Source of the DNA: a virus
DNA length: 27,613 nt
Reading direction: 5' to 3' (one strand)
IMG/VR virus record: IMGVR_UViG_3300042451_000405
Location: 1 to 27,613 of that record
Shown here: positions 5,901 to 22,426 of the stretch, piece after piece
Layout: every line of letters begins with the position of its first letter
Position numbering within the stretch: the first letter of the stretch is position 1
Program-made: the position numbers and the translations under genes
The notes under the pieces: generated by a model
The model's input: only the letters and a program-made list of their open reading frames with translations
The model's database searches: none
What the model was told of the DNA's origin: nothing

Positions 5901-6057
5901 TTCCGATAACCTATCATCATTATTCTTATTAATGCAGTATCTTAAAACCCAATTTGATTTCATTTGGATTATATCACATTTAGACCAAATGAGGGATGTG
6001 GTTGATGGACTTATTGAAATTAAGAAAGAGAACGGATTCTCAAAGATTAATTTTTAG
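2914..6057 (+). CDS. Fused SbcD-SbcC (T4 gp47-gp46-like) recombination nuclease/ATPase
   Basis: 1047 residues. In T4, gp47 (Mre11/SbcD nuclease) and gp46 (Rad50/SbcC ATPase) are separate proteins that resect DNA ends for recombination-dependent replication; here they are one chain. The Mre11 part shows all phosphoesterase motifs: DIH at 11-13, GD at 48-49, GNHD at 83-86, H154, and GDIH at 187-190. The Rad50 part starts near residue 367 with Walker A (APNTAGKSS, 402-410). It continues with a Q-loop region, a long coiled coil broken by a zinc hook CKFC (723-726), the ABC signature CSGMEK (958-963), Walker B LVIDEG with D989/E990, and an ISH switch near 1013. Walker A has Ala where the first Gly of GxxGxGKS is usual, and the signature is CSGME rather than LSGGE. 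No frameshift or internal stop is seen. It overlaps the primase gene by 4 bases. Confidence 0.93.
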   Translation: MSLKRIYHIADIHIRNLKRHKEYRLVFDKMFEEIRQRGTEDSIIYLAGDIAHAKLEMSPELIKEISWLFTECSKHCPTILIAGNHDCNMNNSDRLDVLTPIVEALNLTDFHYLKDTQVYSIGGVDFSVFSIFDKRDNWITADKMFGNKKIALFHGPVDSSQTDVGYVVSSRHFTTDMFDGYDLALLGDIHKRQEMISPKGCKIVYAGSLVQQNFGETLDKHGFLVWDLDTLTYEEVDIPNEYGYYTLDIDGGIVPDVADIPKYARLRVRLSNTDTADTKRMVTEIKKKYGIEDFTIIRTDSMNKLKTGNRISKLDFEDITDVEYQNTLVKEYLQRMMPFISDEDLNGIEDIHKEIAGKIQNDEVIRNISWKPIKFEFSNMFSYGESNKIDFTKVDGLMGLFAPNTAGKSSLFDAISFCMFDKCSRAYKASHVMNNRKDTFFCKLHFQIDGVDYFIRREARTINKGKNVKVDVEFWKEVGGEVESLNGTERRDTNTVIEQYVGRYEDFVLTALSLQGNNALFIDKSQSERKDLLAQFMGLTIFDKLYEGASEEIKEVAALIRNFKRTDFTTELAEKETDLKEKKVRLDELNNEIKEFNKSKDSIQTQISELNKSITPIDKNLNIKKLEDSKSDLVTKIASVGNQMDEKVSKIDEYQNLLGEVSQSINQHAEVNGLPIDDAKKQWDSAKGKLVEIQQQIDKLETQYEGNLDKLKHLESHEYDPNCKFCMNNVFVKDAIQTKETVKEQEKQLEELNSAHHSLIKANEPLAEVEDVWEKLVELRNKYQKGKVIKEKAQAELKSLEHQKELYETQMAGVELDIQKYYDNEATISENQKIEIAISELDVKKKDIEKSLGTYNKELLSITGKIGSIESFIIGIKQKMDDVKNLENKNQLYTYYLDAVKRDGVPYELISKAMPVIENEVNNILGQIVDFGVVMDVDGKSINAKIVYEDQEWPLELCSGMEKFVSGLAIRVALINICNLPRPNFLVIDEGFGTLDSDNLSSLFLLMQYLKTQFDFIWIISHLDQMRDVVDGLIEIKKENGFSKINF

Positions 6058-6319: not shown

Positions 6320-9300
6320 ATGGCAATAATAAAAAAATACGCTGAGGTTTTATCGCAACCCCTAACATCATACACAACTTTTGTAAATGATGATGCGCCA
6401 AACTCTACATATTTTAGAGTTACCGAATTTAAAGATACATTTACAGGTGGTAAAAACGGATTCTTAATTGAAGGTAGTGAGCATTTAAAAGAAACTACTG
6501 AAATAAAAATTCAAATATTAGATGTGGAAGGTAATCCTGTCTATTATGAACCTGGTAATGGTATACCTGAATATTATGAAGGTAATTCCAAAATAATAGC
6601 TGTATATGTTTATGAAACTACACCTATTGGATTGGGTAAAATAACAATCTTAGGTGAATTAAAAACTTACATTGATGAAACTGGAATTGTAAGAGATGTT
6701 CCGGAAGATTGGGCTGGTGTTTATAATTGTAAATGGGAAAGAACATTTACAATAAACAAATTAATATCTAATGAAGATAAAGTTAGATTTTACAAAAGAC
6801 CAAAGGTAATAATTAATGAAATAGTAAAACCAATTTTTTCAAACATTGTAACCGCAGTAACTCAAACTGGTTATGTTGATGGTTTTGCACAAACACCTTC
6901 TGCCGGAGAAAGATTAACCGGTTTTACGTTACCAACAAATTACCTATTACAAATAAATAATAGTGCTACGGCTTGGACAGGTTCAGTAGTTGGAAGTACT
7001 ATAAATTTAACTAATTTAAATTTTTCATCGGTTGTTGATGATGTTATATCAAACAAAGATATTACTATAACAACACCATACACAGAAAATGGAATTGTAA
7101 AAGATATTTCTAATCAACCATATTCTGTAACATTTAACTATGTTGAGGGTATAGATAATTTAAAAACAGCATTAACAGGTTCTTTTGCAAAAATAACTTT
7201 AAGAGATTTAACAACTTTTGTTGGTGATGCTGCAAGGGTAAAAATATTTAGAAAATCACAATCAGATTTAGCAGATTATCAATTCATTCAAGAAATACAA
7301 TTAGAATCAAATGAAATTCTTGTTGATTTGGAATCAACTACTAAAAATTTAGAAAATTATGGAGTATTTGATGAAGTATTATATCCAAACTATTGGTTAA
7401 CATCATCTAATAATATAACAACTGAATTTAATCAAGACGTTTTATATAGTTCTATAAAATTAGATAGTTTAGGTGCTAATGAATTTTACACATCTAAATC
7501 ATTATCGTTAACTACTGATGCGGAATATACATTAGGATTTAATGTAAGATTGGCTCAGAATATATCATCGGATAACTACATAAAAGTTTATTTAAGTGGT
7601 TCTAAACAAACTACCTATAATAACGTAACATCAACAATAGGTGTTAAGAAAAATATAGTATCAATTACATCGGATAATTCAGTTCTTCAAAAAAGCCAAC
7701 TAAGTAGTAATTTTAAAGCAGAAGAAATTGATGATGCTAGATTATATTTTGAAGTAAAAGGAAATGGATGGTATGTTTCCGATGTTAGTTTAAGAGCATC
7801 GCAGGAAACTTCGTATTCACCTGATGAAATTACATTCATTCAACCAATACCAAGAACATTACCTGCTGAGACATTTACTTTCTTATTTCAATTTTACGAT
7901 ATTAATAACAACTACATTCCTGTAATTGTTGAAGAAAGTAAAACTTTTGATGGTGGTAATTTAAATCCTATTCAAAAGAGTTTAGAATTAATACCATCAT
8001 CTTTATATTTTCAATTTGATTCTGGTTCTGGTAATGGTAATCCGTTACCACCAACTGTGATAAGTTTTGATGTTGTTAAAAGTTACCTAACGGGTTCTGT
8101 AACATTTACATCACGTTCATTTGATTTTTTCAATAATGAATTATCATCATCTCAATATTCAACAACTGTAACACCTGGTTATTCTTGGTGGCAATTTCCT
8201 GGTTTGTTAAGTGATATCAATTCAGATTCACCATACCTAACAGTACAAAATTTTACTGGTTCAAGAGACCCACAATTGGAAGATATAGTTGTACAATTTA
8301 TTGAATATACAGCTCAATGTGAAGGTGTTGAAGATTCCGTGATTATTACGAGAGTAGTTGATGGTAAAGGTGGGGTTAATTATGAAATTAGACCGTATAG
8401 TGGAACTGTAATTAGAAACTCAAATCCATCATCATCTTTAGAAGTTCAAGCAATTAGAATTGATGGTGTAAACGAAATTAATTTAAGAAGTGGATTGCCG
8501 GCAGGACGTTCAGCTGTTCAACTTCACGTACAAAGTGGTTCTACTTATATCACACTTCAAGAAGCTAGTAATAAAAATTTTGTAAAAGGATTATCAGCTG
8601 GTCTAACTGGTAGTGGTCAATTAAATTATAATGCAATTTTTAAAAGAGAATCGATTGATACTCAAAGAACATTATATCTAATACCATCTGGTTCAGCAAA
8701 CCCATCAGCATCAATTTTAACTACTTTAACGTTAACTGATTTATTAGATGGTATTGATGCTGGTGTTGTATTATTTGATGCGGATACGTTTACAATAAAC
8801 CCAAGACTTACAAATACATTTACACCAATTTCTTCATCAGCTACTGCATCTTTTTATAAGAGAGGTACAACTGAAGGACCTATATCAGCATCTATTGAAG
8901 TATTCCCATCAATGTCAGTTAATTCTGATTTTGTACCGGAGTATTGGATGTACTATGTAACAAATAGTGTGAATCGGGAAATTAGTGTTGTTGCGTATGA
9001 TGAAAGAGGAAATGTAATACCATCTACACCTATTAATCAGTATATTGGTTCTCCGTTAACACAAAGTAAACAATTATTAGTAAACTTTACTTATACGGAA
9101 GAGTTTACATCGGCTTCGGTTAGTGTTGATAAATTGTTTACAATTATACCAGAAGGTAAACCGGGCGATGAATCTGTTGTGTTTGAAGTTACACCATCAT
9201 CCGTAACATTACAAGCAAATTCAAGAGGTATTGTAACTGATTACTCATCAACTATAACTGATGTAAAACTAAAACAAGGTTCTCGTTATTTAATTTTTAC

Positions 9301-12300
9301 GAGTAGTAGACAACCTGGTACATTCCATATAGCAACTGGTTCTATGGTTGGTAGAAATATTACACCGGGTAATGTTTACTTTGATAATTTATACACACAA
9401 TCTTTAATAGTAAGCGCTTCAACAAATATGACTGATTTGAGCGCTAGTATAGAATTACCTTTAGAGATTCAACCATACTACACATCATCAGTTTATACTG
9501 CAAGTGTTTTTCAAAATGTAACAAAAGTATTAGATGGTGCACCTCCTATCGAAATCATATTATCACCATTATCAGTTAACCTAACATCAGATGAAGTTGG
9601 AAATATTTCCGATTACTCAAATGCGGTAACAACTTTAAAAGTTAGAGAAGGTGATGATTATTTAACATATACAACTTCATCAACAATACCTGGTAGTTGG
9701 AGAGTACAATATATTAGTGGAAGTAATATTCAAACGGCATCACTACAATCTTTAATAACATCCTCAACCGATACGGCTGTTGTTAATTTTACAGCATTTG
9801 AATATCCACATGTATCGGCTAGTGCTTTATACAATATTAAAGTGTATCCATACGCATTAGGAAAGGGGCATACATACACATCATCGTTGTATGAAAGAAC
9901 TCAATTCTTTACTAAGAATGTTGCACAAAGTGCAGCGAGAACTGTAACATTAACATCTACTTCTGAAGTTGTAAACTTTGATGGCGATGGTGTAGTTGTA
10001 TCTCCTGAAGGCGATATTACATTAACGGCAATTGCATTTAATACTACCGGTTCTGCTTTCTATGAGTTTTACAAAGATTCGGTTCAATATTCACCTATAC
10101 AATCATCAAACACTTTTACAATTTCTTCTGGCGATGCTACCTCTCCTGGTCAAACGGCTACTTGGAGAGTTGATGTTAGGGATGGTAGTAATTTAGTAAC
10201 AGCTCCAGTTAGAGCACAAGCTCAAATTACAATTAGTGGTATAAAAGCTGGTGGTGAATCATATTCTGTAAACGTAACAAATGAAGTTGCATCTTTGGTT
10301 GGAGATGTTTGGGAACTAAATACAACGGGAAGTAATACACAAATAGTAGCAACTAAAGGAGACACTCAATTAACACACGTTAATTCATTTAGTCCACCAA
10401 CTTTAGATTTAAATGGTGACCCGATTGGTTCATTAGGAGAATATCAAGTAACAATACAATCAAAGCCGAATTATATAACTTTACCTAGTTCGTTGGTTAG
10501 TGGAAGTATAGTTCCTACTGTTAATAATATTGCTACAATAGGTGATATTGTTTCTTGGAATCAATGGGGTAATAATACAAATGCGGAAATTGTATATAAG
10601 ATTGATATAGAAAATGGTAGACAAATATTATTTAAAACACAATCATTATCAATTCAGTTTAATCCATATGGACCATATTCAACGCAATTATCAAACGAAA
10701 ACTCATCAATAGTTTACAAAGTAAGTGGTGAGGTAGAGTTAGGAAATACGGGAAATACAATTAGAGGGTTTAGAGGTGATACTGAATTAACAAATAGTTC
10801 ATCTTTTGCAAATCCACAAACTGATGCATTTGGAAATACTGGATATAAAAATCAATATAACGTTTCAATACATAATGTATCTGCAAATTTAGATTTAGCT
10901 GGTGCAATTGTTAGTGGAAGTTATCTAAGTGGAAATCCTGCTACAATAGGTCAATTAGATAGTTGGGGAAGTCCTGAAAGTATAGCAGTTGCTCAAATTG
11001 TATATAGGATAGATTGTGAGGGTAGAGAGAATTTATATAAAACACAATCTTTATCAATTCAATACGAAGGTAATACCGGACCTGGTATTGTAATGAGAGG
11101 ACTTTGGAATGAAGTTACCGATTACATTGGTTCAGTTGAAACAACAAATTATAGAAGGGATGCAATTATATTCCCAGACCCATCTGGTAGTAGTGGAGCA
11201 ACTCATTATTGGGCTGCATTAAGTGGTTCTGGTCCTTCTGGTGATGGACCTCAATTACCAACTTCACCAACATCACCATCGTATGTTGATACATCATATT
11301 GGCAATATTTGGGTGAGCAGGATTTCTTTGTATCAGCAAAAATAGCAATATTTGAAGAATCATTTGTTAAGAATACAATAAACGTTGGTAATAATCCGGG
11401 TTCAGCATTTGCAAACGTTGTAATAGCTGGTGGTAGAACTGACCCATATATTTCAATTGGACAAAATGGAACAGTTGGTGCTAGTGGTGACCAAACTACA
11501 CCTGGTGTTATTGGATATGACAGGGGTGGTATATTTTTAGGAGTTTATGAAGGTGGGGCAACTACATCGGGAAGATTCTCTATTATGACTCAACCTGGTG
11601 GAGCAAGTACTGCTGGTTTACTTTGGGATGGTGATACATTAACTATTATTGGTTCTATACGTCAAAGAGAGCCTGGTGTACCTGAAGGTTCATTTAGAGG
11701 GGCTTGGATAGATGGGGAAGATTATTGGATTGATGATACTGTAACTTACAACGGAGCAAGTTATATATGTACAGCTGTAAATGCTTCTACAAATGATACT
11801 AATATAAACACAGGTAGACCTGAATATGCAACGAATAGTTGGATGATATATGCTAACTCTGGTACATCTGGTGTAAATGGAGCTCCTGGTGCAAATGGTA
11901 CATCTGGTACGTCTGGGGCAGCTGGTAGTGTTGGGCCTGGTGTTGTATTTAGAGGTCCTTTCTCTACGGGAAGTGTTTATTATAAATCAACAAGTAGAAC
12001 CGATGTGGTACAACAAGCAGCTGGTGGTAGTAACTATTGGTTAGCAACAAATGCTGCATTAAATAATCAATCGGGTTCTAACTGGGGAGTTCCATCACCA
12101 TCATCATCAAATTGGCAATCTTTTGGTGCAGAATTTAGTTCAATTGCAACGGGTACTATTATATCTGAACAATCTTTTGTACAAAGTACGTTAAACGTTG
12201 GTACAAACATACAAGGAAGTTCTGCAAATATCGCTATAGTTGGGGGTTCTGCTCAACCATATATTTCCATAGGACAGGGAACTCAAGGATATAGTAGACC

Positions 12301-14353
12301 TGGTATATTCGTTGGAAATGATTCAAACAATTATAGATTATCATTGGTTAATAATGAACCAACCGCATCAGCAGCATATAGATATCTAAGATGGAATGGT
12401 ACTGGTTTGGAACTTAGAGGTAGTGTTGAGGCTTTAGATGGTGTTATTGGTTCTTGGAGAATTGTTGGTAACACAATACAATCATCAAATGACTCTATTA
12501 TATTGGATGCGGATGATGAATCTGTGAGTGTATATGATAGTAATGATACTCTTAGATTCCAAGCTAACGCGGATACGGATTTACCATCTTTATCAGCAGC
12601 AACAGCTGGTACTACTTCATTTTCAGGTTCTTCTTTCTTTAGTAAAACTAGCTTTAATGGTTCTAATATTGATGAGAGTGCATTCTTTTATTTTCAACCA
12701 AGTTTTACAACTGGAGCTGCTGGAAAATATGTAATAAAATATGTTTATAACCCATCTACTCTATCATCATATGCAAATGCAACCGGTTTTGGTAATTCAT
12801 ACCTTGTATTCCAATTGGTATTAGCACCATTATCTGGTGGTAATCCTGATTTGGGTAATTTGTATTATGGTAATAGTGCCAATGCATTTGCATATGGTAG
12901 TATGGGTGAGGATGATTTTAGGTCTGTTATTGGTACTACTAAAATTTTAATGGGAGATGGTTCTATAAAGTTTGCAAAAGATATAGAACAATGGGATGAA
13001 ATATTGGCTTGGGATTCTGAAAACCAAAAATTTGTATCAACCAAAGTTTCAAAAATCAGTTCAAGAGAAGTAAACGAAACTTATAAAGTAAAAGTTGGTG
13101 GAAACGAATTAGAAGTATCCGATACCCACACCTTTTGGGTAGAGGGTGAAACTGATGAACTTTGTGTATTGGAGTTAATACCTGGTAAATCTAAAATAAA
13201 TGTAAAAGTTGGAGATTTAATAGAACAAAAGATAGTTGAATATGTAGAAGTTATTGAACAACCAAATGAGGTGTATTCATTATCAGTTCCTAAATATGTA
13301 AACTATGTTTCTAATGATATTATTTCACACAACGTTTTTTATTTCGCTGAATATGATGTTGCATATATACAAAAACCATTAACTTTCGTAGTATCACCAA
13401 ATTTAGCAGCATCAACTCAATATAGAATAGGACTTGCAATTTCATATGAAATTAATTCAATAGATACTAGCGGTCTCCCATATTACCAAAACTCACAAGC
13501 AACAGTTCAGGCTAATATTGGTACATCCACATCAGCAACATACCAATTGGTATCAGCTGGTACGGTAGCAAATGGGGGTGGGTTTCAAACGGTAACAACA
13601 AATGCGGCATATCTTAGACACGATTCTACTATAACAACATATCCTACAACTTATTATACATCATATAGGGGTGGTATAAGTGGTGATACTTTGAGATTGA
13701 GAAAAGATAGTGGTGATGATACTACTATATTAAAAATTCAAAACATAGGAACTTCTGGTGCATTTACTGCAATAGATGTTGTTAGTGGTGCTGGTACGGT
13801 TGCTATTAATGGTAATCCAATGACGTTGGGTGAATCCGGTACGTTTTCGGCTAGTGGTGCAATTCGTAGTGGAAATAATGGTACTAGAGGTGGTTTATAC
13901 TTAGTAAACCCACCAACCGATGGTAGTGTGGGTGGACAAACTTATAGGGATGTAAGGATGAGTATTAGTGCTGGTGCATGGGAATTTAGAGTGTTTAGAG
14001 ATGGTCCATCATCAAGACGATATAAAAAAGAAATAGAAGATTGGAAATCTTATCCTGATTTATTAGAAAAATTACAACAAGTAAGAGTAAAAGAATTTAG
14101 ATATACTGAAGCTGACCCTAATAGTGAATACCCTAAAAAGCTGGCATTGATAGCTGAAGATTTACATGATGTAGGACTTACTGACCTTATTGGTTATTCT
14201 GATATTACCGATAGTGATGGTCAAATAATAGGGCAACAACCTGAAGATTTGGATAACAGAAACATATTATGGGCTGTTTGGGCTGGTGTAAATACACTTA
14301 TTGATAAAGTTAAACAAATGGAATCCCAAATGAGTTCTTCATTAGGTTTGTAA
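6320..14353 (+). CDS. Giant tail fibre with repeats, Hint domain and S74 chaperone
   Basis: 2677 residues, Ser/Thr/Gly-rich, many TGS and SGS triplets, no signal peptide. The N-terminal ~180 residues look like a distinct attachment domain. Tandem Ig-like units lie near residues 953-1202, and a second pair of repeats near 1314-1581. A third pair (1588-1715 and 1873-1986) carries FRG.(W/F)...Y openings, like carbohydrate-binding modules, and NVGxN...GG...PYISIGQ ends. Between them are another FRGAW module (~1790) and a collagen-like Gly-rich stretch (~1847-1875). A Hint domain occupies 2202-2338. The C-terminus is an S74 intramolecular chaperone with SSRRYK at 2564-2569 and LIAEDLHDVG. Such proteins are trimeric, host-binding fibres, and S74 folds the trimer and is then cut off. 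The size is extreme. The adjacent heptosylation cassette makes it a candidate glycoprotein. Exact fibre type (long fibre or baseplate appendage) is unknown. Confidence 0.9.
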   Translation: MAIIKKYAEVLSQPLTSYTTFVNDDAPNSTYFRVTEFKDTFTGGKNGFLIEGSEHLKETTEIKIQILDVEGNPVYYEPGNGIPEYYEGNSKIIAVYVYETTPIGLGKITILGELKTYIDETGIVRDVPEDWAGVYNCKWERTFTINKLISNEDKVRFYKRPKVIINEIVKPIFSNIVTAVTQTGYVDGFAQTPSAGERLTGFTLPTNYLLQINNSATAWTGSVVGSTINLTNLNFSSVVDDVISNKDITITTPYTENGIVKDISNQPYSVTFNYVEGIDNLKTALTGSFAKITLRDLTTFVGDAARVKIFRKSQSDLADYQFIQEIQLESNEILVDLESTTKNLENYGVFDEVLYPNYWLTSSNNITTEFNQDVLYSSIKLDSLGANEFYTSKSLSLTTDAEYTLGFNVRLAQNISSDNYIKVYLSGSKQTTYNNVTSTIGVKKNIVSITSDNSVLQKSQLSSNFKAEEIDDARLYFEVKGNGWYVSDVSLRASQETSYSPDEITFIQPIPRTLPAETFTFLFQFYDINNNYIPVIVEESKTFDGGNLNPIQKSLELIPSSLYFQFDSGSGNGNPLPPTVISFDVVKSYLTGSVTFTSRSFDFFNNELSSSQYSTTVTPGYSWWQFPGLLSDINSDSPYLTVQNFTGSRDPQLEDIVVQFIEYTAQCEGVEDSVIITRVVDGKGGVNYEIRPYSGTVIRNSNPSSSLEVQAIRIDGVNEINLRSGLPAGRSAVQLHVQSGSTYITLQEASNKNFVKGLSAGLTGSGQLNYNAIFKRESIDTQRTLYLIPSGSANPSASILTTLTLTDLLDGIDAGVVLFDADTFTINPRLTNTFTPISSSATASFYKRGTTEGPISASIEVFPSMSVNSDFVPEYWMYYVTNSVNREISVVAYDERGNVIPSTPINQYIGSPLTQSKQLLVNFTYTEEFTSASVSVDKLFTIIPEGKPGDESVVFEVTPSSVTLQANSRGIVTDYSSTITDVKLKQGSRYLIFTSSRQPGTFHIATGSMVGRNITPGNVYFDNLYTQSLIVSASTNMTDLSASIELPLEIQPYYTSSVYTASVFQNVTKVLDGAPPIEIILSPLSVNLTSDEVGNISDYSNAVTTLKVREGDDYLTYTTSSTIPGSWRVQYISGSNIQTASLQSLITSSTDTAVVNFTAFEYPHVSASALYNIKVYPYALGKGHTYTSSLYERTQFFTKNVAQSAARTVTLTSTSEVVNFDGDGVVVSPEGDITLTAIAFNTTGSAFYEFYKDSVQYSPIQSSNTFTISSGDATSPGQTATWRVDVRDGSNLVTAPVRAQAQITISGIKAGGESYSVNVTNEVASLVGDVWELNTTGSNTQIVATKGDTQLTHVNSFSPPTLDLNGDPIGSLGEYQVTIQSKPNYITLPSSLVSGSIVPTVNNIATIGDIVSWNQWGNNTNAEIVYKIDIENGRQILFKTQSLSIQFNPYGPYSTQLSNENSSIVYKVSGEVELGNTGNTIRGFRGDTELTNSSSFANPQTDAFGNTGYKNQYNVSIHNVSANLDLAGAIVSGSYLSGNPATIGQLDSWGSPESIAVAQIVYRIDCEGRENLYKTQSLSIQYEGNTGPGIVMRGLWNEVTDYIGSVETTNYRRDAIIFPDPSGSSGATHYWAALSGSGPSGDGPQLPTSPTSPSYVDTSYWQYLGEQDFFVSAKIAIFEESFVKNTINVGNNPGSAFANVVIAGGRTDPYISIGQNGTVGASGDQTTPGVIGYDRGGIFLGVYEGGATTSGRFSIMTQPGGASTAGLLWDGDTLTIIGSIRQREPGVPEGSFRGAWIDGEDYWIDDTVTYNGASYICTAVNASTNDTNINTGRPEYATNSWMIYANSGTSGVNGAPGANGTSGTSGAAGSVGPGVVFRGPFSTGSVYYKSTSRTDVVQQAAGGSNYWLATNAALNNQSGSNWGVPSPSSSNWQSFGAEFSSIATGTIISEQSFVQSTLNVGTNIQGSSANIAIVGGSAQPYISIGQGTQGYSRPGIFVGNDSNNYRLSLVNNEPTASAAYRYLRWNGTGLELRGSVEALDGVIGSWRIVGNTIQSSNDSIILDADDESVSVYDSNDTLRFQANADTDLPSLSAATAGTTSFSGSSFFSKTSFNGSNIDESAFFYFQPSFTTGAAGKYVIKYVYNPSTLSSYANATGFGNSYLVFQLVLAPLSGGNPDLGNLYYGNSANAFAYGSMGEDDFRSVIGTTKILMGDGSIKFAKDIEQWDEILAWDSENQKFVSTKVSKISSREVNETYKVKVGGNELEVSDTHTFWVEGETDELCVLELIPGKSKINVKVGDLIEQKIVEYVEVIEQPNEVYSLSVPKYVNYVSNDIISHNVFYFAEYDVAYIQKPLTFVVSPNLAASTQYRIGLAISYEINSIDTSGLPYYQNSQATVQANIGTSTSATYQLVSAGTVANGGGFQTVTTNAAYLRHDSTITTYPTTYYTSYRGGISGDTLRLRKDSGDDTTILKIQNIGTSGAFTAIDVVSGAGTVAINGNPMTLGESGTFSASGAIRSGNNGTRGGLYLVNPPTDGSVGGQTYRDVRMSISAGAWEFRVFRDGPSSRRYKKEIEDWKSYPDLLEKLQQVRVKEFRYTEADPNSEYPKKLALIAEDLHDVGLTDLIGYSDITDSDGQIIGQQPEDLDNRNILWAVWAGVNTLIDKVKQMESQMSSSLGL
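9176..9925 (+). repeat. Tandem Ig-like repeat pair inside the tail fibre
   Basis: Two protein repeats of about 120 residues, starting at 9176 (VVFEVTPSSVTL) and 9548 (IEIILSPLSVNL). Each is followed by a (G)(I/N)(V/I)(T/S)DYS(S/N) segment, then VK(L/V)(K/R).G..YL and a (P)G(T/S)(F/W) segment. The divergence shows an old duplication. They probably form stacked beta sandwiches in the fibre shaft. Confidence 0.65.
10259..11062 (+). repeat. Second tandem repeat pair inside the tail fibre
   Basis: Copy one 10259-10657 and copy two 10712-11062 code for related units. Shared parts include GDT(Q/E)LT, a Q(V/Y).V(T/S)I strand, (A)TIG(D/Q), an AEIVYKID/AQIVYRID strand, and an identical ending KTQSLSIQ. 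The unit length is about 117-133 residues. Confidence 0.75.
11081..12277 (+). repeat. Third repeat pair inside the tail fibre, with a module between copies
   Basis: Copy one 11081-11464 and copy two 11936-12277. Both open GPG(I/V)V(M/F)RG and contain a YW segment with aromatic residues. Both end (S)FV..T(I/L)NVG.N...(S)AN(V/I) followed by GG...PYISIGQ. Between them lie a separate FRGAW module (~11690) and a collagen-like segment (~11858-11941). The aromatic pattern suggests carbohydrate contact, which is an inference. Confidence 0.75.
12923..13333 (+). other. Hint (intein-like/BIL-type) domain coded within the tail fibre
   Basis: Residues 2202-2338 of the fibre. The entry SVIGTTKILMGDGSIKFAKD matches intein block A (normally C..GDT.V...DG....I.D), but with Ser in place of Cys1. 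Block B is EVSDTHTFWVEG (S-D-T-H for TxxH). Blocks F and G are EVYSLSVPKYVNYVSN and DIISHN. The domain is 137 residues, mini-intein size, with no homing endonuclease insert. The residue after HN is Val, not Cys, Ser or Thr, so standard protein splicing is not expected. This is the pattern of bacterial intein-like domains, which self-cleave, or of a decayed intein. The flanks, GEDDFR before and VFYFAEYDVAYIQ after, read as one interrupted beta-rich domain. Confidence 0.82.
14009..14353 (+). other. S74 intramolecular chaperone domain of the tail fibre
   Basis: The last 114 codons. SSRRYK (2564-2569) places Ser2564 five residues before Lys2569, the spacing of the Ser-Lys pair in endosialidase-type chaperones. 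ALIAEDLHDVGL and the helical ending (WAGVNTLIDKVKQMESQM) are also typical. The known function is to trimerise the fibre, then be released by self-cleavage next to the Ser. Confidence 0.88.
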
Positions 14354-14391: not shown

Positions 14392-14670
14392 ATGGCATTA
14401 GAAACGAAACAATTACCAAAAGAAATAGTTGACAACTTGATTTCTTATAAAAATAATTACACCAATTCGGTGTATAATTTAGGAGAGTTGCATATGAGAA
14501 TTAGTTCACTAAAAAAAGAACTAAAGAAAATGGAAGAAGATACCATTTTATATGAAACTGATGTAGATAAAACATATGATATTCTAAACACCGCATTGGC
14601 GGATTTGGAAAAGCAGTATCCAAAGGGAGAAGTTAATCTTTTAGATGGTACTGTAACTTTTGAAAAATAA
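14392..14670 (+). CDS. Small coiled-coil protein, paralogue of the gene at 19217
   Basis: 92 residues, charged and helical (SSLKKELKKMEEDTILYETDVDKTYDIL), ending KQYPKGEVNLLDGTVTFEK. The gene at 19217 codes for a similar protein: GE(L/V)(H/Y)(M/V)R in the middle and a closing (K)(Q/K)YP(K/Q)G.(V/I)N..DGTV. The two copies flank the sugar-modification cassette. The late-type motif upstream and its position right after the tail fibre suggest a virion or fibre-assembly role, such as a chaperone or adaptor, but no family is recognised. Confidence 0.7.
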   Translation: MALETKQLPKEIVDNLISYKNNYTNSVYNLGELHMRISSLKKELKKMEEDTILYETDVDKTYDILNTALADLEKQYPKGEVNLLDGTVTFEK

Positions 14671-14730: not shown

Positions 14731-16899
14731 ATGCGTAAAAAGTTACTTTACATATGTCCCCATCTTTCAACCGGAGGACAACCTCAATATACGTTTAAAC
14801 AGGTAGAACATTTTATTAATGATTTCGAAATCGAAGTTGTTGAAATAAACAATAGCGGTGGTGATGCGTTTGTTGTACAAAAAAATCGTATAAAATCATT
14901 AGCCATATTACACACTTTGGGTGATGATAAATCTGAAATATTGCAGATTATAGAAAAATTTCAACCTGATATTATTCACTTTCAAGAAATACCTCAATTT
15001 GATTTATCAACTGATATCTTAGATAAAATTTTCACAAAGGATAGAAATTATTTTATAGTATCAACAACACATGGTTCATTTACAAATCCATCTGATATAG
15101 TATATCATCCTGATAGATACATTTTAGTTTCCGAATGGAGTAGAAGAAGATTTGAAGAAACTGGTGTTGAAACTATGTTGTGGGAATATCCAATTGAAGA
15201 TTTAAAACCAAATAGAAATAAAGCAAAAGAAATATTAAAGCTAGATTCAGATTGGAAGCATGTATTAATGGTTGGATTGTTTTCACCTGGTAAAAACCAA
15301 GCTGAAATATTTTCAGTAGCTAGACAATTAGAAAAATATAAAATTAAATTTCACTTTGTAGGAAACCAAGCTATGAATTTTGAGCATTATTGGTTACCAC
15401 TTATGAAAGATAAGCCTGATAATTGTGTAGTATGGGGTGAACGAACTGATACGGATACATTCTATGAAGCGTGTGACCTATTTTATTTTTCATCAACTTT
15501 AGAATTAAATCCATTATCAATTAAAGAGGCATTGAGTTGGAAGTTACCTTCATTATTCAGAAGGCTTCATACATTTTTGGATACATATGATAATAACCCA
15601 TTAGTAACTTATATTGATGATGATTTAAACATTACTAAAAGAAAAATATTAGAAATATTAAAACCTGAGTTTAATGAATTACCTGGTTGGTTTTCATATG
15701 ACAAACTTTATGATGAAGCAGTAGAAAAAGCTCCATTTAAAGCAAATTTTGTTGAGGTTGGTTCTTGGCTTGGAAAATCTACAAATTATTTAGTTGATAG
15801 AATAAAAGAATCAAAAAAGAAAATTCAATTTACTACAATTGATACATTCAAAGGAAACTTAAATGAATCATATTATCAAAAAAGAGTTGAATCATTTGGT
15901 GGAGATGCTTTTTACGAATTTGTAGATAACACAGTCATATCAAACAACTATGATAAATTTGATATTATAAAAGATACATCAGAAAACGCATCGAAGCAAT
16001 TTTCAAATGATAGTATTGATTTTATTATGTTAGATGGCGACCACTCCTATGAGAATACAATAAATGATATAAAACTTTGGTACAATAAAGTAAAACCGGG
16101 TGGATATATTACTGGTGATGATTATAATGTTTTTCCATCTGTTACAAAAGCAGTAAACGATTACTTTTATAATCAAATTAATAAAGTTGAATTATCTTGG
16201 GTTAGGAAAAAACCACGTATTCAGATTAAACATCTTTTGACAAGACCTGATGATATGAGAGAGCGTGTATCTATTCAATCTATTAAGCAATTAGCAAAAT
16301 ATGGAATAGATTATCAACCAATTGTAAACAAACCATACGAAGGATTAGCACCTGCCGAAAATTGCCGTAGACCGGAACATATTAGTAAAGATAATAAACC
16401 GGGTGAGTTGTGGCCTGGTGCAGGATTGGGTTGGATGACTGGTAGGCATTATGGATGTTATCTTGCACATAGAGGAGCTTTGGAAACTATTGATGATACA
16501 AACTATGATTATACATTAGTGTTTGAAGCAGATGCTTTCATCTATACTGGTTTAGAAGAATTCGTAGAAGCCGTTCATAAAGCATGTTTTATTTCAGAAA
16601 GAGATGATGTGTATTTCATTGGAATGGCAAACAACCCATCAAGAGAAAAACATAAGATTGATGATATGTTTAGTAAAACAGCATTTAATCAGGATTTAGC
16701 ACATGCTTATTTAATTCCAAACCGAACAAAAGGTTGGTGGATGGAAAGATTAAAAGATTGTGGTTGGGATGTTGGTGACCTTTGGTTTAATCATGTATTT
16801 GCAAATTATCCAAAACATAGATATACTACAAACAAAATGTATTCAAAACAAGCTGAAGGATATTCTCTTTTAGACTTAATGGTAAAAACTTGGAACTAA
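14731..16899 (+). CDS. Three-domain protein: GT4-like glycosyltransferase, SAM methyltransferase, GT25-like glycosyltransferase
   Basis: 722 residues, cytoplasmic. Domain one (1 to ~310) is a GT-B glycosyltransferase: an N-terminal YICPHLSTGGQPQYT loop, VLMVGLFSPGKNQAEI, and the E-x7-E nucleotide-sugar motif ELNPLSIKE (E258, E266). Domain two (~335-480) is a class I methyltransferase: FVEVGSWLGKST, the acidic TTIDTF, and IDFIMLDGDHSYENT near 435. Domain three (~508-722) looks like a GT25 (LPS/procollagen type) transferase: RERVSIQSIKQLAKYGIDYQ, then GRHYGCYLAHRGALE and LVFEADAFIY, where EAD stands for the usual EDD/DxD. It is first in a four-gene operon with its own host-type promoter, and the next gene starts one base after its stop. 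Acceptor and sugars are unknown. It may build or methylate a glycan on the heptose added by the next gene's product. Confidence 0.85.
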   Translation: MRKKLLYICPHLSTGGQPQYTFKQVEHFINDFEIEVVEINNSGGDAFVVQKNRIKSLAILHTLGDDKSEILQIIEKFQPDIIHFQEIPQFDLSTDILDKIFTKDRNYFIVSTTHGSFTNPSDIVYHPDRYILVSEWSRRRFEETGVETMLWEYPIEDLKPNRNKAKEILKLDSDWKHVLMVGLFSPGKNQAEIFSVARQLEKYKIKFHFVGNQAMNFEHYWLPLMKDKPDNCVVWGERTDTDTFYEACDLFYFSSTLELNPLSIKEALSWKLPSLFRRLHTFLDTYDNNPLVTYIDDDLNITKRKILEILKPEFNELPGWFSYDKLYDEAVEKAPFKANFVEVGSWLGKSTNYLVDRIKESKKKIQFTTIDTFKGNLNESYYQKRVESFGGDAFYEFVDNTVISNNYDKFDIIKDTSENASKQFSNDSIDFIMLDGDHSYENTINDIKLWYNKVKPGGYITGDDYNVFPSVTKAVNDYFYNQINKVELSWVRKKPRIQIKHLLTRPDDMRERVSIQSIKQLAKYGIDYQPIVNKPYEGLAPAENCRRPEHISKDNKPGELWPGAGLGWMTGRHYGCYLAHRGALETIDDTNYDYTLVFEADAFIYTGLEEFVEAVHKACFISERDDVYFIGMANNPSREKHKIDDMFSKTAFNQDLAHAYLIPNRTKGWWMERLKDCGWDVGDLWFNHVFANYPKHRYTTNKMYSKQAEGYSLLDLMVKTWN

Positions 16900-16900
16900 A

Positions 16901-18049
16901 ATGATTTACGATAACTTAGTAAAAAATAAAAGAAATATTGTTGAAGTACAAAATAAAGTTGTTACTCATTTTGTACGTGGTGCTTTTGTAGAAATAAAAG
17001 GACCGAAGGCAGCACAATATAAAGTTGAGTTCAGAGATAACAAAACGGGCAAACTACATTACTCTACTGAAATTAAAAATAATATGTGGACTAAATGTAG
17101 TATTGAACATTTTATGGAATGGAAAATTACCATTTATGAAAATGGTACGTTTTGGTATGAACACATATATGATGCTACCGATAAAAGAGTTTATATTGCA
17201 TTGGATTCAAAAGCATTGGGTGATTCTTTAGCTTGGATTCCCTATGCTGAGGCTTTTAGAAAAAAGCATGGTTGTAAAGTTATTGTTTCAACATTTATGA
17301 ATGATATGTTTGAAACAAAATATACAAACTTAGAATTCATAAAGCCTGGTACAAATGCTATGGATTTATACGCAATGTATACGGTTGGTTTATTTTATAA
17401 CGAAGATAGTTCAATAAATGGATTGAAGAATCCAACTGACCCAAAACACCAAACAATGCAAAAGATGTGTTCGGACATATTAGGTTTGGAGTTTGAAGAA
17501 ATTAAACCATTGATAAAAGAAAGACCTGTAAAGATTGACCACAACCTAAAACAGGTATGTATTGGTATTCACGGAACCGCTCAATCTAAATACTGGAATA
17601 ATCCAAATGGTTGGCAAGATGTTGTAGATTGGTTAAAAGGTAGAGGATATACAGTTAAACTAATATCAAAAGAAGATAACAATTATATGGGTAATAAACA
17701 CCCAGAAGGAATCGATAAACATCCAAACGGACCTATTGAATTGGTTATGGATGAATTGTTAAAATCAAAAGCATTTATTGGAATTGGTAGTGGATTAAGT
17801 TGGTTAAGTTGGGCATTGGATGTACCAACTGTATTGATAAGTGGGTTTTCATATAAGTGGGCCGAAATGAAAGATTGTGTTCGTATTGGTGCACCACAAG
17901 GGAAATGTGAAGGATGTTTTAATCGTTTAAGATTAGATGCTGGGGATTGGAATTGGTGTCCAGACCATAAAGGAACTGAAAGACAATTTGAGTGTACTAA
18001 ATCAATTACTTCGGAAATGGTAATTAAAGAATTGGAAAAATTCTTGTAA
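16901..18049 (+). CDS. TibC/Aah-type protein O-heptosyltransferase (GT9-like)
   Basis: 382 residues. This enzyme family transfers heptose from ADP-heptose to Ser/Thr side chains of bacterial autotransporter adhesins. Features that fit: an N-terminal beta-rich domain (AFVEIKGPKAAQYKVEFRDN, then a NNMW segment), the family stretch RVYIALDSKALGDSLAWIPY and KVIVSTFMND, and a GT9 C-terminal half with GIGSGLSWLSWALDVPTVLI. A four-Cys cluster at C336, C339, C353 and C365 lies where TibC has its iron-binding finger. It starts one base after the preceding stop. It overlaps by one base (TAATG) with the adenylyltransferase that would make its donor. The substrate is not shown by the sequence. The Ser/Thr-rich giant fibre just upstream is the best candidate; a host surface protein is the alternative. 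Confidence 0.88.
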   Translation: MIYDNLVKNKRNIVEVQNKVVTHFVRGAFVEIKGPKAAQYKVEFRDNKTGKLHYSTEIKNNMWTKCSIEHFMEWKITIYENGTFWYEHIYDATDKRVYIALDSKALGDSLAWIPYAEAFRKKHGCKVIVSTFMNDMFETKYTNLEFIKPGTNAMDLYAMYTVGLFYNEDSSINGLKNPTDPKHQTMQKMCSDILGLEFEEIKPLIKERPVKIDHNLKQVCIGIHGTAQSKYWNNPNGWQDVVDWLKGRGYTVKLISKEDNNYMGNKHPEGIDKHPNGPIELVMDELLKSKAFIGIGSGLSWLSWALDVPTVLISGFSYKWAEMKDCVRIGAPQGKCEGCFNRLRLDAGDWNWCPDHKGTERQFECTKSITSEMVIKELEKFL

Positions 18050-18438
18050 TGAATAAAATAATTTGGATAAATGGGTGTTTTGATGTTCTACATTATGGAC
18101 ATTTTAAATTGATTCAATATGCAGTTTCATTAGGTGGTAAGTTAATAATTGGTATTGATTCGGATGAAAGAGTTAAAGAACTAAAAGGTAAAGATAGACC
18201 TTTTCATACTCAAACACAAAGAGAATATTGTTTAAGACAAATTAGAGGTGTTGGTGATGTAGTTGTATTTAATACCGAAGATGAATTGAGAAATGTATTA
18301 GAATACTTAAAACCGGATTACTTTGTTATAGGTTCTGATTATATAAATAAACCAATTATTGGTGGACAATTTGCAAAAGAAATTAAATTCTTCGAAAGGA
18401 TAGATGAATTTTCAACAACAAAATTATTAGATGAGTAA
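18049..18438 (+). CDS. hldE (C-terminal domain-like): Heptose-1-phosphate adenylyltransferase (HldE C-terminal domain-like)
   Basis: 129 residues, a compact nucleotidyltransferase. INGCFDVLHYGHFKLIQYA holds the HxGH site (HYGH, 15-18). IGIDSDERVKELKGKDRP is the typical next segment, and STTKLL is near the end. In the HldE/RfaE2 branch this enzyme makes ADP-heptose from heptose-1-phosphate and ATP. The related glycerol-3-phosphate cytidylyltransferase (TagD) is the main alternative on fold alone, but a heptosyltransferase directly upstream and an HldE-like kinase directly downstream favour ADP-heptose. It is coupled at both ends: a 1-base overlap upstream and an 8-base overlap downstream. Confidence 0.88.
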   Translation: MNKIIWINGCFDVLHYGHFKLIQYAVSLGGKLIIGIDSDERVKELKGKDRPFHTQTQREYCLRQIRGVGDVVVFNTEDELRNVLEYLKPDYFVIGSDYINKPIIGGQFAKEIKFFERIDEFSTTKLLDE

Positions 18439-19174
18439 AGTATTAGTTATAGGAGAAAGTTGTACTGATGTTTTCATATACGGAAAAACAGAAAGAAAAT
18501 CACCCGAAGGTAAGGGACCTGTTTTCGTACCAACAAGAGAGGTGTATGGTAATGGTATGGCACTAAATACAGCAAACAATCTATCAGCTATGGGTGTTGA
18601 TGTAGATGTTTATTCTGATAATGGTGGTATAACTAAAACAAGATATGTAAACGAAACCACAAATGAATTGTATTTGAGAGTAGATGAAAATGATTCAGTT
18701 GATAGGATTGATATTTACAAATTGCCAGATTTAGCATTTTATAATGCCATCGTAATATCCGATTATTGTAAAGGTTTTTTAACCGAAGAAGATATACATA
18801 AGATAGCATCCATGCATAGTTTGGTTTTGGTGGATACTAAAAAGAAATTGGGGGATTGGTGTAAAAATATAACATTTATAAAACTCAATAGGTCTGAATG
18901 GCAAAATAATATCGATGAGATAAAAAAATACTCCGAATGGATTGATAAAAAATTAATAGTTACATTAGATAGTAGGGGTGCTACATATATGGGTAAACTG
19001 ATACCTACCGAAAAAGTTCAAAATGCAGATGTAAGTGGTGCTGGTGATACTTTTGTAGCAGGATTTACTGTAAAATACATAGAATCAACCAATATTGAAG
19101 AATCTATTCAATGGGCTAACTATTGTTCTGGACAAGTTGTAAAAGAAAAAGGTGTAACTGTGTTCGAAAAGTAA
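18431..19174 (+). CDS. hldE (N-terminal domain-like): PfkB-family heptose kinase (HldE N-terminal domain-like), short form
   Basis: 247 residues. VLVIGESCTDVFIYG and VYGNGMALNTANNLSAMG are the N-terminal sugar-kinase pattern. NADVSGAGDTFVAGF (about 198-212) is the PfkB signature with the catalytic base D206. In bacterial HldE this half phosphorylates heptose-7-phosphate at C1. The bacterial domain is about 315 residues, so this is a trimmed version; the losses seem to be in the lid and middle region. It overlaps the adenylyltransferase gene by 8 bases. The order is reversed relative to host HldE, where the kinase comes first in one chain. GmhA, GmhB and HldD homologues are not in the window, so heptose-7-phosphate would have to come from the host or from elsewhere in the genome. 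Confidence 0.85.
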   Translation: MSKVLVIGESCTDVFIYGKTERKSPEGKGPVFVPTREVYGNGMALNTANNLSAMGVDVDVYSDNGGITKTRYVNETTNELYLRVDENDSVDRIDIYKLPDLAFYNAIVISDYCKGFLTEEDIHKIASMHSLVLVDTKKKLGDWCKNITFIKLNRSEWQNNIDEIKKYSEWIDKKLIVTLDSRGATYMGKLIPTEKVQNADVSGAGDTFVAGFTVKYIESTNIEESIQWANYCSGQVVKEKGVTVFEK

Positions 19175-19216: not shown

Positions 19217-19579
19217 ATGGCAGAATTAGATAAAGTTCCAACCAAAGCTCAAATCGAAATCGAAACTGTAAAGTTAGAGGAAGAAACACTTTCACAAATT
19301 TCAAATTTAAACGCAGATGTTAATAAATGCGTTTCAACATTTGGTGAAGTCTATGTTAGAAGAAAAGAGTTAACTGAAGAGTCTATGAGACTTGATGAGT
19401 TAGTAAGGGAAACTGAAGAATTGTTCAAATCAAAAAATGCAGAACTTAGAGAAGTTCTAGATGGTGTTGATGAAAAATACCCACAAGGTAGAATCAATAT
19501 GCAGGATGGTACTGTTCAGTATCAACCAGGAGCTCCTACTAGAAAGCAATTGAGAGAACAACAGGCACCAAAACAATAA
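19217..19579 (+). CDS. Small coiled-coil protein, paralogue of the gene at 14392
   Basis: 120 residues. A long charged helix (RRKELTEESMRLDELVRETE and on) is followed by KYPQGRINMQDGTVQYQP and a basic, Gln/Pro-rich tail (TRKQLREQQAPKQ) that the 92-residue paralogue lacks. The GEVYVR and YP.G..N..DGTV segments align with the gene at 14392. It has its own late-type motif. Position and expression suggest a virion or assembly role. No named family recognised. Confidence 0.7.
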   Translation: MAELDKVPTKAQIEIETVKLEEETLSQISNLNADVNKCVSTFGEVYVRRKELTEESMRLDELVRETEELFKSKNAELREVLDGVDEKYPQGRINMQDGTVQYQPGAPTRKQLREQQAPKQ

Positions 19580-19618: not shown

Positions 19619-22426
19619 ATGAATGAGTTAACAAATTTCTTAATTGAATCAATTTTATCGGAAGCGGACAGTGTAAACAAAGTTATTGTTGTTTACTCTG
19701 GCCGCTTTCAACCGTTTCACAAAGGTCATTATGCAACATATGACCATTTAGTTAAAAAGTTCGGCAAAGATAATGTTTATGTTGGGACCTCCAACAAAAC
19801 CGATAATCAGAAATCTCCATTTGATTTTAAGGAAAAAAAAGCAATAATGACCAAAATGTTTGGTATCCCATCAAACAAAATAGTAATGGTCAAAAATCCT
19901 TATGCTCCATCTGAAATCTTAAACAAATATGATGAAGATACAACTGGATTTATTACAGTTGTTGGTGAAAAGGATGAAGCTAGATTAGGTGGTAAGTATT
20001 TTGAACCATATAAGGGAAAGGTTGAGATTGGATTTAAAGATAAGGGATACGTTTATATATCCCCAGCACAACCAAATGCTATTAGTGGTACTGATGTTAG
20101 AAATTGGCTAAGTAAAGGTACTGATGACGAAAAGAGAAAGAATTTTCTAAAAGCATATCCAAAATTTGATGAAACAATATACAAATTTGTAACATTAAAA
20201 TTGAAAAAAATAAATGAGAATATGCCAGGTGGAGCTGGTGTTGGTGTAAGTTTACCCGGTGGATATATTAATGGAGCACCAAATCCAAAAGATGTTAAAA
20301 AATTAAAAAAGAAGTTGGATAAAGATGGTAGTGAATATTATGAACCATATGCTTTGGGTGGTGGTATAAGTGAATACGCATCTATGGGTATGAGCCACAT
20401 ACAACATCCTATTGATAGAGAACCATTAAGACCGGAAGAAGAAATGGATTTAGATAATACCATAACTGAAATTCCAATGGCAGATTTGGTAAAAATTGAT
20501 TCTTATGCAGATAGACAATTGAATCCAATAGATGTGGTTCTTACTGATAAACACTTTTTCGATAGATTACAAGACGCAAGAAATAATAAAGAAATTTCAG
20601 CAGCAGAATTAACTGGTTTCTTTAAAAGGTTAGCAAAAAATAAAAAGAAGTTTTTTGAATTCCTAAATCAATATGGACAAGTAGTAGCTAAGGATAATAG
20701 AAGTAAAATTAATATTCCATTTATGAAACAGGCGAATAAAATAATCGCTAAAACCATAATGAGGAAAGATGGATTTCAAACCACATCTCCGCAATATCAA
20801 TTTGAAGATATTACTGAAGCAAATGCTGTAAGTGGCGGTAAAGTAAATAAATTTATAACTGGTAAGAATCTTACATTAAAAGGTAAAAAATACAGTGATA
20901 TCCATTTCGAATTAGTTAGTATAGATAATAACAAGCAAATTGTTAAATTAACGGTATTGGCACCAAAAGAAATATTTGGACAAGAAATAAACATCGATTT
21001 CAGAACATTAAGAAGAGGACCATTTTTGAAAACAAACACAAATGTATTTGAAAATATAACACTTCCTGTAAAAGTTGGTGATACTATCCTTATGGGTAAA
21101 TTCAAAAACAAAAAAGTAGTTGTTAAATCTATTGGTAAAGATGAACATGGTATGCCAACTATTAATGGTAAAAAAGCAACTACATTTAGAATCATAAAAG
21201 AAAACATAGAAGAATCAAAACTTCTTACTGAAGGTGGTGCTTATGGTCATATGAACCATCCATTTGATATTGAGATGAATCTTACATTTGGTGACCTTAA
21301 AAATATTGTAACCAAAGCTCTTAATGGTGATTTAGAATTGGCAAGAGAGAAAACTGATGGACAGGCATTGGCAATTAGTTGGGTAAATGGTAGATTAGTT
21401 GCGGCAAGAAATAAATCACATCTTAAAAGTAAAGGTAAAGATGCTATGGATATAAACGCTGTAGCAGCTAAGTTTGGTGGTAGAGGTGGATTGACAGATG
21501 CGTATAACTTCGCTATGAAAGACCTTTCAACGGCAATAGGAGCATTATCTCAAGCTCAAAGAGATAAGATATTCAAAGGTGGTAGTTGCTTTATGAACTT
21601 AGAAGTAATATACCCAACATCTGTAAACGTAATCCCTTATGGACAACCATTATTAGTATTTCACGGAACATTTGAATATGATGAATCTGGAAATATAATT
21701 GGAGAAAACCAACAAGCAGCTAAAATATTAGCTGGTATGATTAAGCAGATAAACGGACACGTTCAATCTAAATACACAATTCAAGGACCTCCAGTAACCA
21801 AATTACCAAAATCAGAACATCTTTCTAAACAACAAGCTAAATACTTAGCTAAGATTTCTAAATTACAAAGTGAATTTGGTTTAGCAGATAATCAGGGTGT
21901 AGCAGAATACCATCAGGCTTGGTGGACAAATTTTGTTAATAAAAACGCTAAAGGATTGGATGGACTTCAAAAAATTGGTTTAGTTAAAAGATGGGCTTTC
22001 TTAGATAAAACATTCCGAATAAAAGATATCAAAGATGATAAGATAAGAGCATGGGCTGAGCAAACTGATAAGCAAGACCAGCAAAAAATATCTAAGCAAA
22101 ATCTTATGAAATTTGAAGAAGTTTTCTTAGGAGTTGGTGCTGATGTATTATCGTTTATGAGTTCGGTTTTAACAGCAAATCCAGACGCTGCAAAAAGACA
22201 GATGGTTTCTAGATTAGAATCTACTATACAAACTATACAAAAGAAAGGTGACCCTAAGCAGGTTGAAAAATTAAAATTGGAACTTCAAAGATTAAATTCT
22301 TTGGGTGGATTTGATAAGATTGTACCAAACGAAGGTATTGTATTTGTATATGGTGGTAACACTTATAAATTAACTGGTGCATTTGCACCATTAAACCAAA
22401 TTTTGGGTATTTTCTACGAAAATTAG
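19619..22426 (+). CDS. Multidomain NMN-adenylyltransferase-like / polynucleotide ligase-like fusion
   Basis: 935 residues. The N-terminal domain (~20-195) is a nucleotidyltransferase of NMN-adenylyltransferase/cytidylyltransferase type: YSGRFQPFHKGH with HKGH at 34-37, and ISGTDVRNWL. A middle block (~300-395: TDKHFFDRLQDARNNKEIS, then AKTIMRKDGF) is one I recall from marine T4-like phages, without known function. The C-terminal part (~545-935) has covalent nucleotidyltransferase (ligase/capping) motifs: EKTDGQ with candidate lysine K578, FMNLEVIYP near 660, and EGIVFVYGGNTYKLTG near 905-920. Similar phage proteins are annotated cytidylyltransferase. The first 16 residues carry LIE and LSE, placed like the T4 capsid-targeting peptide (see findings). 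It is late-type and sits just ahead of the packaging genes. Joining an NAD+-forming to a ligase-like domain suggests NAD+ or nucleic-acid end repair, which is an inference. Confidence 0.82.
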   Translation: MNELTNFLIESILSEADSVNKVIVVYSGRFQPFHKGHYATYDHLVKKFGKDNVYVGTSNKTDNQKSPFDFKEKKAIMTKMFGIPSNKIVMVKNPYAPSEILNKYDEDTTGFITVVGEKDEARLGGKYFEPYKGKVEIGFKDKGYVYISPAQPNAISGTDVRNWLSKGTDDEKRKNFLKAYPKFDETIYKFVTLKLKKINENMPGGAGVGVSLPGGYINGAPNPKDVKKLKKKLDKDGSEYYEPYALGGGISEYASMGMSHIQHPIDREPLRPEEEMDLDNTITEIPMADLVKIDSYADRQLNPIDVVLTDKHFFDRLQDARNNKEISAAELTGFFKRLAKNKKKFFEFLNQYGQVVAKDNRSKINIPFMKQANKIIAKTIMRKDGFQTTSPQYQFEDITEANAVSGGKVNKFITGKNLTLKGKKYSDIHFELVSIDNNKQIVKLTVLAPKEIFGQEINIDFRTLRRGPFLKTNTNVFENITLPVKVGDTILMGKFKNKKVVVKSIGKDEHGMPTINGKKATTFRIIKENIEESKLLTEGGAYGHMNHPFDIEMNLTFGDLKNIVTKALNGDLELAREKTDGQALAISWVNGRLVAARNKSHLKSKGKDAMDINAVAAKFGGRGGLTDAYNFAMKDLSTAIGALSQAQRDKIFKGGSCFMNLEVIYPTSVNVIPYGQPLLVFHGTFEYDESGNIIGENQQAAKILAGMIKQINGHVQSKYTIQGPPVTKLPKSEHLSKQQAKYLAKISKLQSEFGLADNQGVAEYHQAWWTNFVNKNAKGLDGLQKIGLVKRWAFLDKTFRIKDIKDDKIRAWAEQTDKQDQQKISKQNLMKFEEVFLGVGADVLSFMSSVLTANPDAAKRQMVSRLESTIQTIQKKGDPKQVEKLKLELQRLNSLGGFDKIVPNEGIVFVYGGNTYKLTGAFAPLNQILGIFYEN

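Follow-up and report, generated by a model that had tools for sequence, protein, structure and literature searches.

A TibC-type O-heptosyltransferase of an aquatic T4-like phage belongs to a separate branch associated with Gly-Thr/Ser-X repeat proteins and probably glycosylates phage fibres

What would a phage modify with a protein O-heptosyltransferase of the kind that bacteria direct at autotransporters, as E. coli does in decorating its adhesins with heptose? The question is raised by a 27.6 kb fragment of an aquatic T4-like virus from IMG/VR (27,613 nucleotides; 'the window' hereafter), which encodes primase, SbcC/D, a long fibre, terminase and portal. A first-pass annotation had described three overlapping or abutting genes, immediately downstream of the fibre gene, as a TibC/Aah-type heptosyltransferase with an HldE-type adenylyltransferase and kinase. 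The coordinates and overlaps of these genes were confirmed (16901–18049, 18049–18438 and 18431–19174, overlapping by 1 nt and then by 8 nt), but they do not adjoin the fibre gene; between them lie a small gene (92 aa) and a gene for a fusion protein of 722 aa (GT4-Methyltransf_24-GT25), which the first-pass annotation had overlooked and which forms part of the module. The features concerned are given below, where GTX denotes Gly-Thr/Ser-X triplet repeats.

6320..14353, + strand: tail fibre, 2677 aa, with a C-terminal S74-type chaperone signal; candidate acceptor (PHROG tail fiber, 2.1e-7)
11861..11941, + strand: short collagen-like stretch in the fibre, GTSGVNGAPGANGTSGTSGAAGSVGPG; candidate O-heptose acceptor (triplet count)
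14392..14670, + strand: 92-aa small protein between the fibre and the glycosyl cassette (position conserved)
14731..16899, + strand: fusion of GT4, Methyltransf_24 and GT25-like domains, 722 aa (Pfam)
16901..18049, + strand: Aah/TibC-type O-heptosyltransferase of the phage (GTX) subfamily, 382 aa (TIGR04414, fold, residues, tree)
18049..18438, + strand: compact HldE domain II-like nucleotidyltransferase, PHROG 7878, with HxGH motif (profile search)
18431..19174, + strand: compact HldE domain I-like PfkB sugar kinase, 247 aa, PHROG 8133, GAGD invariant (profile search, fold)
19217..19579, + strand: 120-aa protein on the far side of the cassette, likely paralogue of 14392..14670 (26% identity, weak)

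Viral contigs were scanned with the window heptosyltransferase as query; 130 relatives were confirmed and 80 retained. The module genes were collinear in approximately 35 related viral loci, and their arrangement is therefore not due to chance. As far as each contig reached, the order across the 35 loci nearest to the window was fibre, small gene, GT4 fusion, heptosyltransferase, (HldE-like genes), small gene, cytidylyltransferase-like gene and terminase. The heptosyltransferase was present in all 35 because it had been the search query. The HldE-like genes were optional; both were found in 20 loci, the adenylyltransferase alone in 6 and neither in 9, and in the last group the gap between the flanking genes was less than ~60 bp. 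The small genes at 14392–14670 and 19217–19579 bracket the cassette and are kept in relatives. The gene beyond them (19619–22426) has a NadR/cytidylyltransferase-like N-terminus followed by highly length-variable regions (782–1490 aa in relatives from the window lineage).

Profile searches upheld the family proposed for 16901–18049. The sequence matched TIGR04414 (hepto_Aah_TibC) at 273.9 bits (E = 1.9e-81), above the curated cut-off of 200, while TIGR02193, representing GT9 enzymes of LPS synthesis, scored 27.9 bits against a cut-off of 185. The only sequence matches in the PDB were to TibC (4rap/4rb4, E = 1e-48). An AlphaFold model (pLDDT 91) had TibC 4rap as its top Foldseek match over the full length (TM 0.86, 373 columns), and the N-terminal beta-barrel, GT-B domain and finger of the TibC fold were all represented in the model. 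The LPS heptosyltransferases WaaC and WaaF gave TM values of 0.38–0.49, on which basis an LPS GT9 identity was ruled out.

In TibC, Asp110 is the catalytic base, Thr226, Lys230, Arg286 and Trp305 contact the donor, and Cys339, Cys342, Cys358 and Cys370 bind iron (PMC4358343). The window enzyme has D108 as the base, and T226, K230 and W301 (TibC Trp305) at the donor site; equivalents of D110, T226, K230 and W305 are retained across the phage clade. A Cys4 iron finger, which the first-pass annotation had anticipated, is predicted at C336, C339, C353 and C365. The position of Arg286, however, is Val282 in the window, and V, I or L (A in one case) in nearly all phage-type enzymes, whereas nearly all classic, autotransporter-type enzymes keep the arginine. 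Since this residue touches adenine in TibC and its mutation abolishes or largely diminishes activity (PMC4358343), the nucleotide could differ, and its loss makes donor identity the weakest step of the mechanism proposed below. The tip of the thumb is YMGN-like in phage-type enzymes and (I/F)VWNH in classic enzymes; a hydrophobic pair in the thumb, Tyr-Met, aligns with Phe265-Val266. In phages outside the window lineage, the heptosyltransferase forms part of a larger polypeptide, joined to GT4, GT2 or methyltransferase domains. Two viral contigs (G041 and G062) had two TIGR04414 matches each, the second in G041 being weak and partial.

The likely partner of the enzyme was indicated by its genomic company. 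Chromosomal homologues occur in methanotrophs and Polaromonas, and the closest bacterial ones have genes for secreted proteins built of GTSGTAG-like triplets in their neighbourhood. Among 301 genomes from the Methylobacter order and 401 from the Polaromonas family, TIGR04414 matches over the cut-off fell into two score classes (~616–663 and 303–327 bits). A secreted GTX protein lay 8–154 bp away, on either strand, in nine of ten phage-type bacterial loci, while none of eight classic loci from these taxa had an adjacent GTX protein (Fisher p = 4e-4, with the bacterial GTX cases forming one clade); most of the eight were accompanied by large autotransporter-like repeat proteins instead. Across whole genomes, GTX arrays were found in 7 of 8 phage-type carriers versus 0 of 7 classic carriers. 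Three genomes with both the phage-type enzyme and a GTX protein (G110–G112) encoded a full HldE kinase.

In many phages, too, such triplets lie close to the enzyme, the longest run numbering 695. When viral contigs of at least 30 kb were picked solely by a (Gly-Thr-x)5 DNA pattern, the enzyme was encoded by 20 of 46, versus 1 of 33 controls picked by Gly-Pro-x (p = 2.8e-5, for phage sequences that are phylogenetically non-independent and in many cases fragments); the single positive control turned out to contain a GTX run of 79 triplets as well. Of 22 enzyme-bearing phage records of ~50 kb or more, 16 contained five or more GTX matches. None of 11 named or huge phages without an enzyme match, cyanophages with an HldE-like pair among them, reached that number. 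The pattern in reverse gave essentially no matches. Within viral contigs, gene and array were no closer than under random placement (mean percentile 0.50), and tight proximity is therefore not claimed for phages. Enzyme carriers without arrays were L427/G313, G025 and LR756504, the last being a huge phage with a 34% identical homologue and zero pattern matches. Another huge phage, LR756501 (735 kb), had a 40% identical heptosyltransferase and ~1,200 pattern matches.

Phylogenetic analysis placed the phage-type enzymes, together with those of the bacterial GTX loci, as a sister clade to the TibC-type autotransporter heptosyltransferases (support 100/100). Family, fold, catalytic residues, separate subfamily and the association with GTX proteins are each established by sequence. 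The bacterial GTX clade was nested inside phage diversity, which suggests that the enzyme was transferred from phage to bacterium. A broader history can be put forward tentatively, as something we consider possible but would not bet on: a TibC-type enzyme may, in phages, have exchanged beta-helical autotransporters for collagen-like GTX repeats as its target, giving widespread O-heptosylation of fibres in large aquatic phages, and may later have been captured by methanotrophs for their own secreted GTX proteins. Were this true, collagen-like fibres would be stabilised by heptose in place of hydroxyproline. One gammaproteobacterial MAG (L095) contains an intermediate enzyme, with Arg286 kept and GTX-repeat stretches on both sides, and may stand at the base of the change of partner. 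Two further MAG sequences labelled 'Rickettsiaceae' and 'Bacteroidetes' (L091 and L094) were discarded as bacterial homologues; they are really phage contigs, resembling L059 and L040.

The window fibre has a Ser+Thr content of 20.9%, and its Peptidase_S74 match (6.8e-4) was slightly below the cut-off. Of the nine Gly-x-x triplets that make up the stretch at 11861–11941, four are G[TS]x; no run of nine arose in 5000 shuffles. A similarly placed stretch occurs in the fibres of four relatives (L003, L004, L015 and L034), where G[TS]x content varies. Longer repeats are found in the giant fibres of window-lineage relatives (from more than 2,600 to 4,539 aa, the longest GTX run being 271 triplets), which lie ~30–50 kb from the cassette. 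In G005, where the enzyme is 75% identical to that of the window, they begin ~31 kb beyond it. Their absence from the window is to be expected, because it stops ~9.5 kb past the heptosyltransferase gene. The adjacent fibre, which had originally been suggested as the target, is retained as a candidate by virtue of its short GTX stretch, but the repeats of the relatives are mainly in giant fibres elsewhere. Autotransporter strand-loop-strand repeats (TIGR04415) had no match in the window, and none over the cut-off in 31 relatives.

A separate feature of the window fibre is an Intein/Hint-like domain at residues 2206–2338 (12935–13333), which matched PF14890 below the cut-off (E = 6e-5) and TIGR01443 above it (17.8 bits; cut-off 15.6). 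It ends ...IISHN-V, without the usual Cys, Ser or Thr next, and has counterparts, ~40% identical, in the L019, L021 and L027 fibres.

The HldE-type description of the two following genes held at the level of the top family, since 18049–18438 matched rfaE_dom_II best (TIGR02199, 101.9 bits) and 18431–19174 matched rfaE_dom_I best (TIGR02198, 107.2 bits), but both fell below the equivalog cut-offs (181.5 and 345, respectively). A TagD-type reading of the former was rejected, scoring 57 bits, under the 102 of HldE domain II. The kinase is ~70 aa shorter than that of HldE, retains the GAGD motif, and its model had HldA (4e8z) as top fold match by E-value. HldE-like genes also follow the heptosyltransferase in a separate lineage, L059. 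The sedoheptulose-7-P isomerase GmhA was found in 1 and absent from 30 of 31 phage records, many of them fragments, and neither GmhA, an epimerase nor GmhB adjoins the HldE-like genes in the window; phages lacking GmhA must rely on the host for the sugar phosphate. Pairs of this kind have long been annotated in phages (P-SSM2, S-SM2, S-CAM1), the related cyanophage pair sitting with a phosphoheptose isomerase and a nucleotide-sugar epimerase, and rfaE is known from pelagimyophages (PMC7029224).

Upstream, 14731–16899 matched Methyltransf_24 (2e-18), Glycos_transf_1 (2e-9) and, sub-threshold, Glyco_transf_25 (0.0087) in Pfam. A homologous GT4 is fused ahead of the heptosyltransferase in at least eight loci (L049, L054, L059–L061, L064, L065 and L079); by the logic of domain fusion, the window protein would act in the same pathway, where it probably extends or methylates the glycan.

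Because the phage branch of the enzyme travels with GTX proteins, repeat-rich tail fibres are its most likely target. The explanation we favour, at a probability of about 0.7, is that the cassette heptosylates the phage's own fibres on GTX repeats, with the HldE-like pair supplying the donor in part and the GT4 fusion modifying the glycan. Modification of a fibre had been offered at the outset alongside that of a host surface protein; it emerges as the likeliest role, ahead of a host autotransporter, with GTX triplets rather than general Ser/Thr richness as the putative acceptor signal. The donor sugar, acceptor residue, order of steps, location in the virion and benefit that follow are what we infer from this. 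The 382-aa TibC-fold transferase would place heptose, most likely from ADP-D,D-heptose, on Thr or Ser of the Gly-Thr/Ser-X repeats. The acceptor would be the short stretch at 11861–11941 in the window and, in relatives, mainly the long arrays of giant fibres ~30–50 kb away, which in the present case would lie beyond the 27.6-kb fragment. Where present, the HldE-like enzymes may raise or supply nucleotide-heptose from host sedoheptulose or heptose phosphates, and the GT4-methyltransferase-GT25 protein may then extend or methylate the glycan. The phage might benefit through stiffening, proteolysis resistance or masking of its long fibres.

Other explanations alter one part of this scheme or the whole of it. 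The enzyme and its GTX acceptor could be as described and the donor be something other than ADP-heptose, if the enzyme had changed its preference for nucleotide or sugar on losing Arg286 and the HldE-like pair made another activated sugar. The replacement of this residue by V, I or L in almost all phage-type enzymes is in keeping with such a switch, as are the optional occurrence of the HldE-like genes, their scores under the equivalog cut-offs and the difficulty of distinguishing adenylyl- from cytidylyltransferases in this superfamily. It is nonetheless unlikely, given that T226, K230, W305 and D110 are retained, that the top families of the pair are heptose enzymes, that the related cyanophage pair lies beside phosphoheptose isomerase and nucleotide-sugar epimerase genes, and that bacterial GTX carriers have a full HldE. 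The GTX association might instead be a by-product of lineage, such that certain large aquatic phages possess both repeat-rich fibres and glycosyltransferases without any functional link. The phage sequences are indeed related, and proximity within contigs did not go beyond chance; yet the partner swap recurs in bacterial chromosomes, between adjacent genes in varied orientation, and classic paralogues of the same bacterial order have no GTX neighbours. Moreover, Flavobacterium phage immuto, which is related by TerL but for which no enzyme match was recorded, is without arrays. We consider a by-product distinctly improbable on these grounds.

Nor is it at all probable that the cassette alters a host surface protein or LPS, thereby blocking superinfection or changing adsorption. 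Phage glycosyltransferases can modify host O-antigen, according to a passage in PMC7029224, and GT4 and GT25 domains are frequent in LPS synthesis. Against this, the fold is that of the protein O-heptosyltransferase TibC rather than WaaC/WaaF, the cassette lies between fibre and terminase genes, and the enzyme is associated with phage-encoded GTX proteins. Least credible of all is the idea that the HldE-like genes are auxiliary metabolic genes unrelated to the fibre, serving host LPS or ADP-heptose signalling (e.g., ALPK1); although cyanophages in which the window enzyme gave no match also have such pairs, here the genes overlap the heptosyltransferase gene, and they follow it in lineage L059. 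A gut host and an ALPK1 connection, raised speculatively in the first-pass annotation, found no support. The enzyme's named carriers were uncultured huge phages and one Microcystis phage, methanotrophs and Polaromonas have the chromosomal homologues, and the named terminase closest to that of the window was from a Flavobacterium phage from a Baltic Sea mesocosm (57%), the Microcystis phage following at 55%.

Comparison with described systems shows where the locus departs from them. The window enzyme shares with TibC/Aah BAHT (TIGR04414; PMC4358343) the full-length fold, catalytic Asp, Thr/Lys/Trp donor contacts and Cys4. However, the phage enzymes lack Arg286, have a YMGN-like thumb tip, are phage-borne and often fused to GT4, GT2 or methyltransferase domains, and are partnered with GTX repeats, without an autotransporter or strand-loop-strand acceptor. 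On this comparison, the enzyme is classed as a sister branch that probably works in BAHT-like fashion and not as an autotransporter heptosyltransferase. The HldE-like pair resembles HldE/HldA/HldC and PHROGs 7878 and 8133 (P-SSM2, S-SM2, S-CAM1) in its top families, compact size and cyanophage-like pairing; it differs in being coupled to an O-heptosyltransferase that is unmatched in those cyanophages. A further counterpart is Microcystis phage Mel-JY01 (PP395634), where the C-terminal part of WWT39291 is a heptosyltransferase 48% identical to that of the window, nearby ORFs contain GTX arrays, and the gene order up to terminase is similar. In Mel-JY01, however, the enzyme is fused with GT4 in one 1226-aa protein, and no HldE-like pair was seen in the stretch read. 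The same protein (L082, 4750–8430) is annotated merely as 'methyltransferase FkbM', despite its GT4 and O-heptosyltransferase domains.

Glycosylation in mycobacteriophages reportedly affects the C-termini of capsid and tail-tube proteins, using other enzyme families and involving neither heptose nor GTX repeats. That phage-encoded glycosyltransferases modify virion proteins there is credited to Freeman 2023 by PMC12619734. The open-access library to which the search was confined contained no paper joining heptosyltransferase, collagen-like and phage, nor any with GTX repeat-rich fibres as a heptosyltransferase target class. The initial statement that no such phage system had been described therefore stands for the heptosyltransferase within that library, but not for the HldE-like pairs, long annotated in P-SSM2 and S-SM2. 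What is new is the phage sister clade, the loss of Arg286, and GTX proteins as partners in place of autotransporter repeats. TIGR04414, a curated family, splits into two branches with different partners, and so an automatic name such as 'autotransporter strand-loop-strand O-heptosyltransferase' would be misleading if given to phage members. Phage fibres would gain a specific glycosylation code (which enzyme, which repeat), testable through a mass signature of +192.06 Da per heptose. Glycosylation could also explain the persistence of very long Gly-Thr/Ser-X repeats in large aquatic phages, and the enzyme is a potential new tool for modifying collagen-like repeats.

Elsewhere in the window, positions 2914–6057 form one ORF of 1047 aa in which SbcD-like and SbcC-like parts are fused. 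A small gene at 1313–1720 matched PHROG 447 ('NAD synthetase') together with two homing endonuclease PHROGs.
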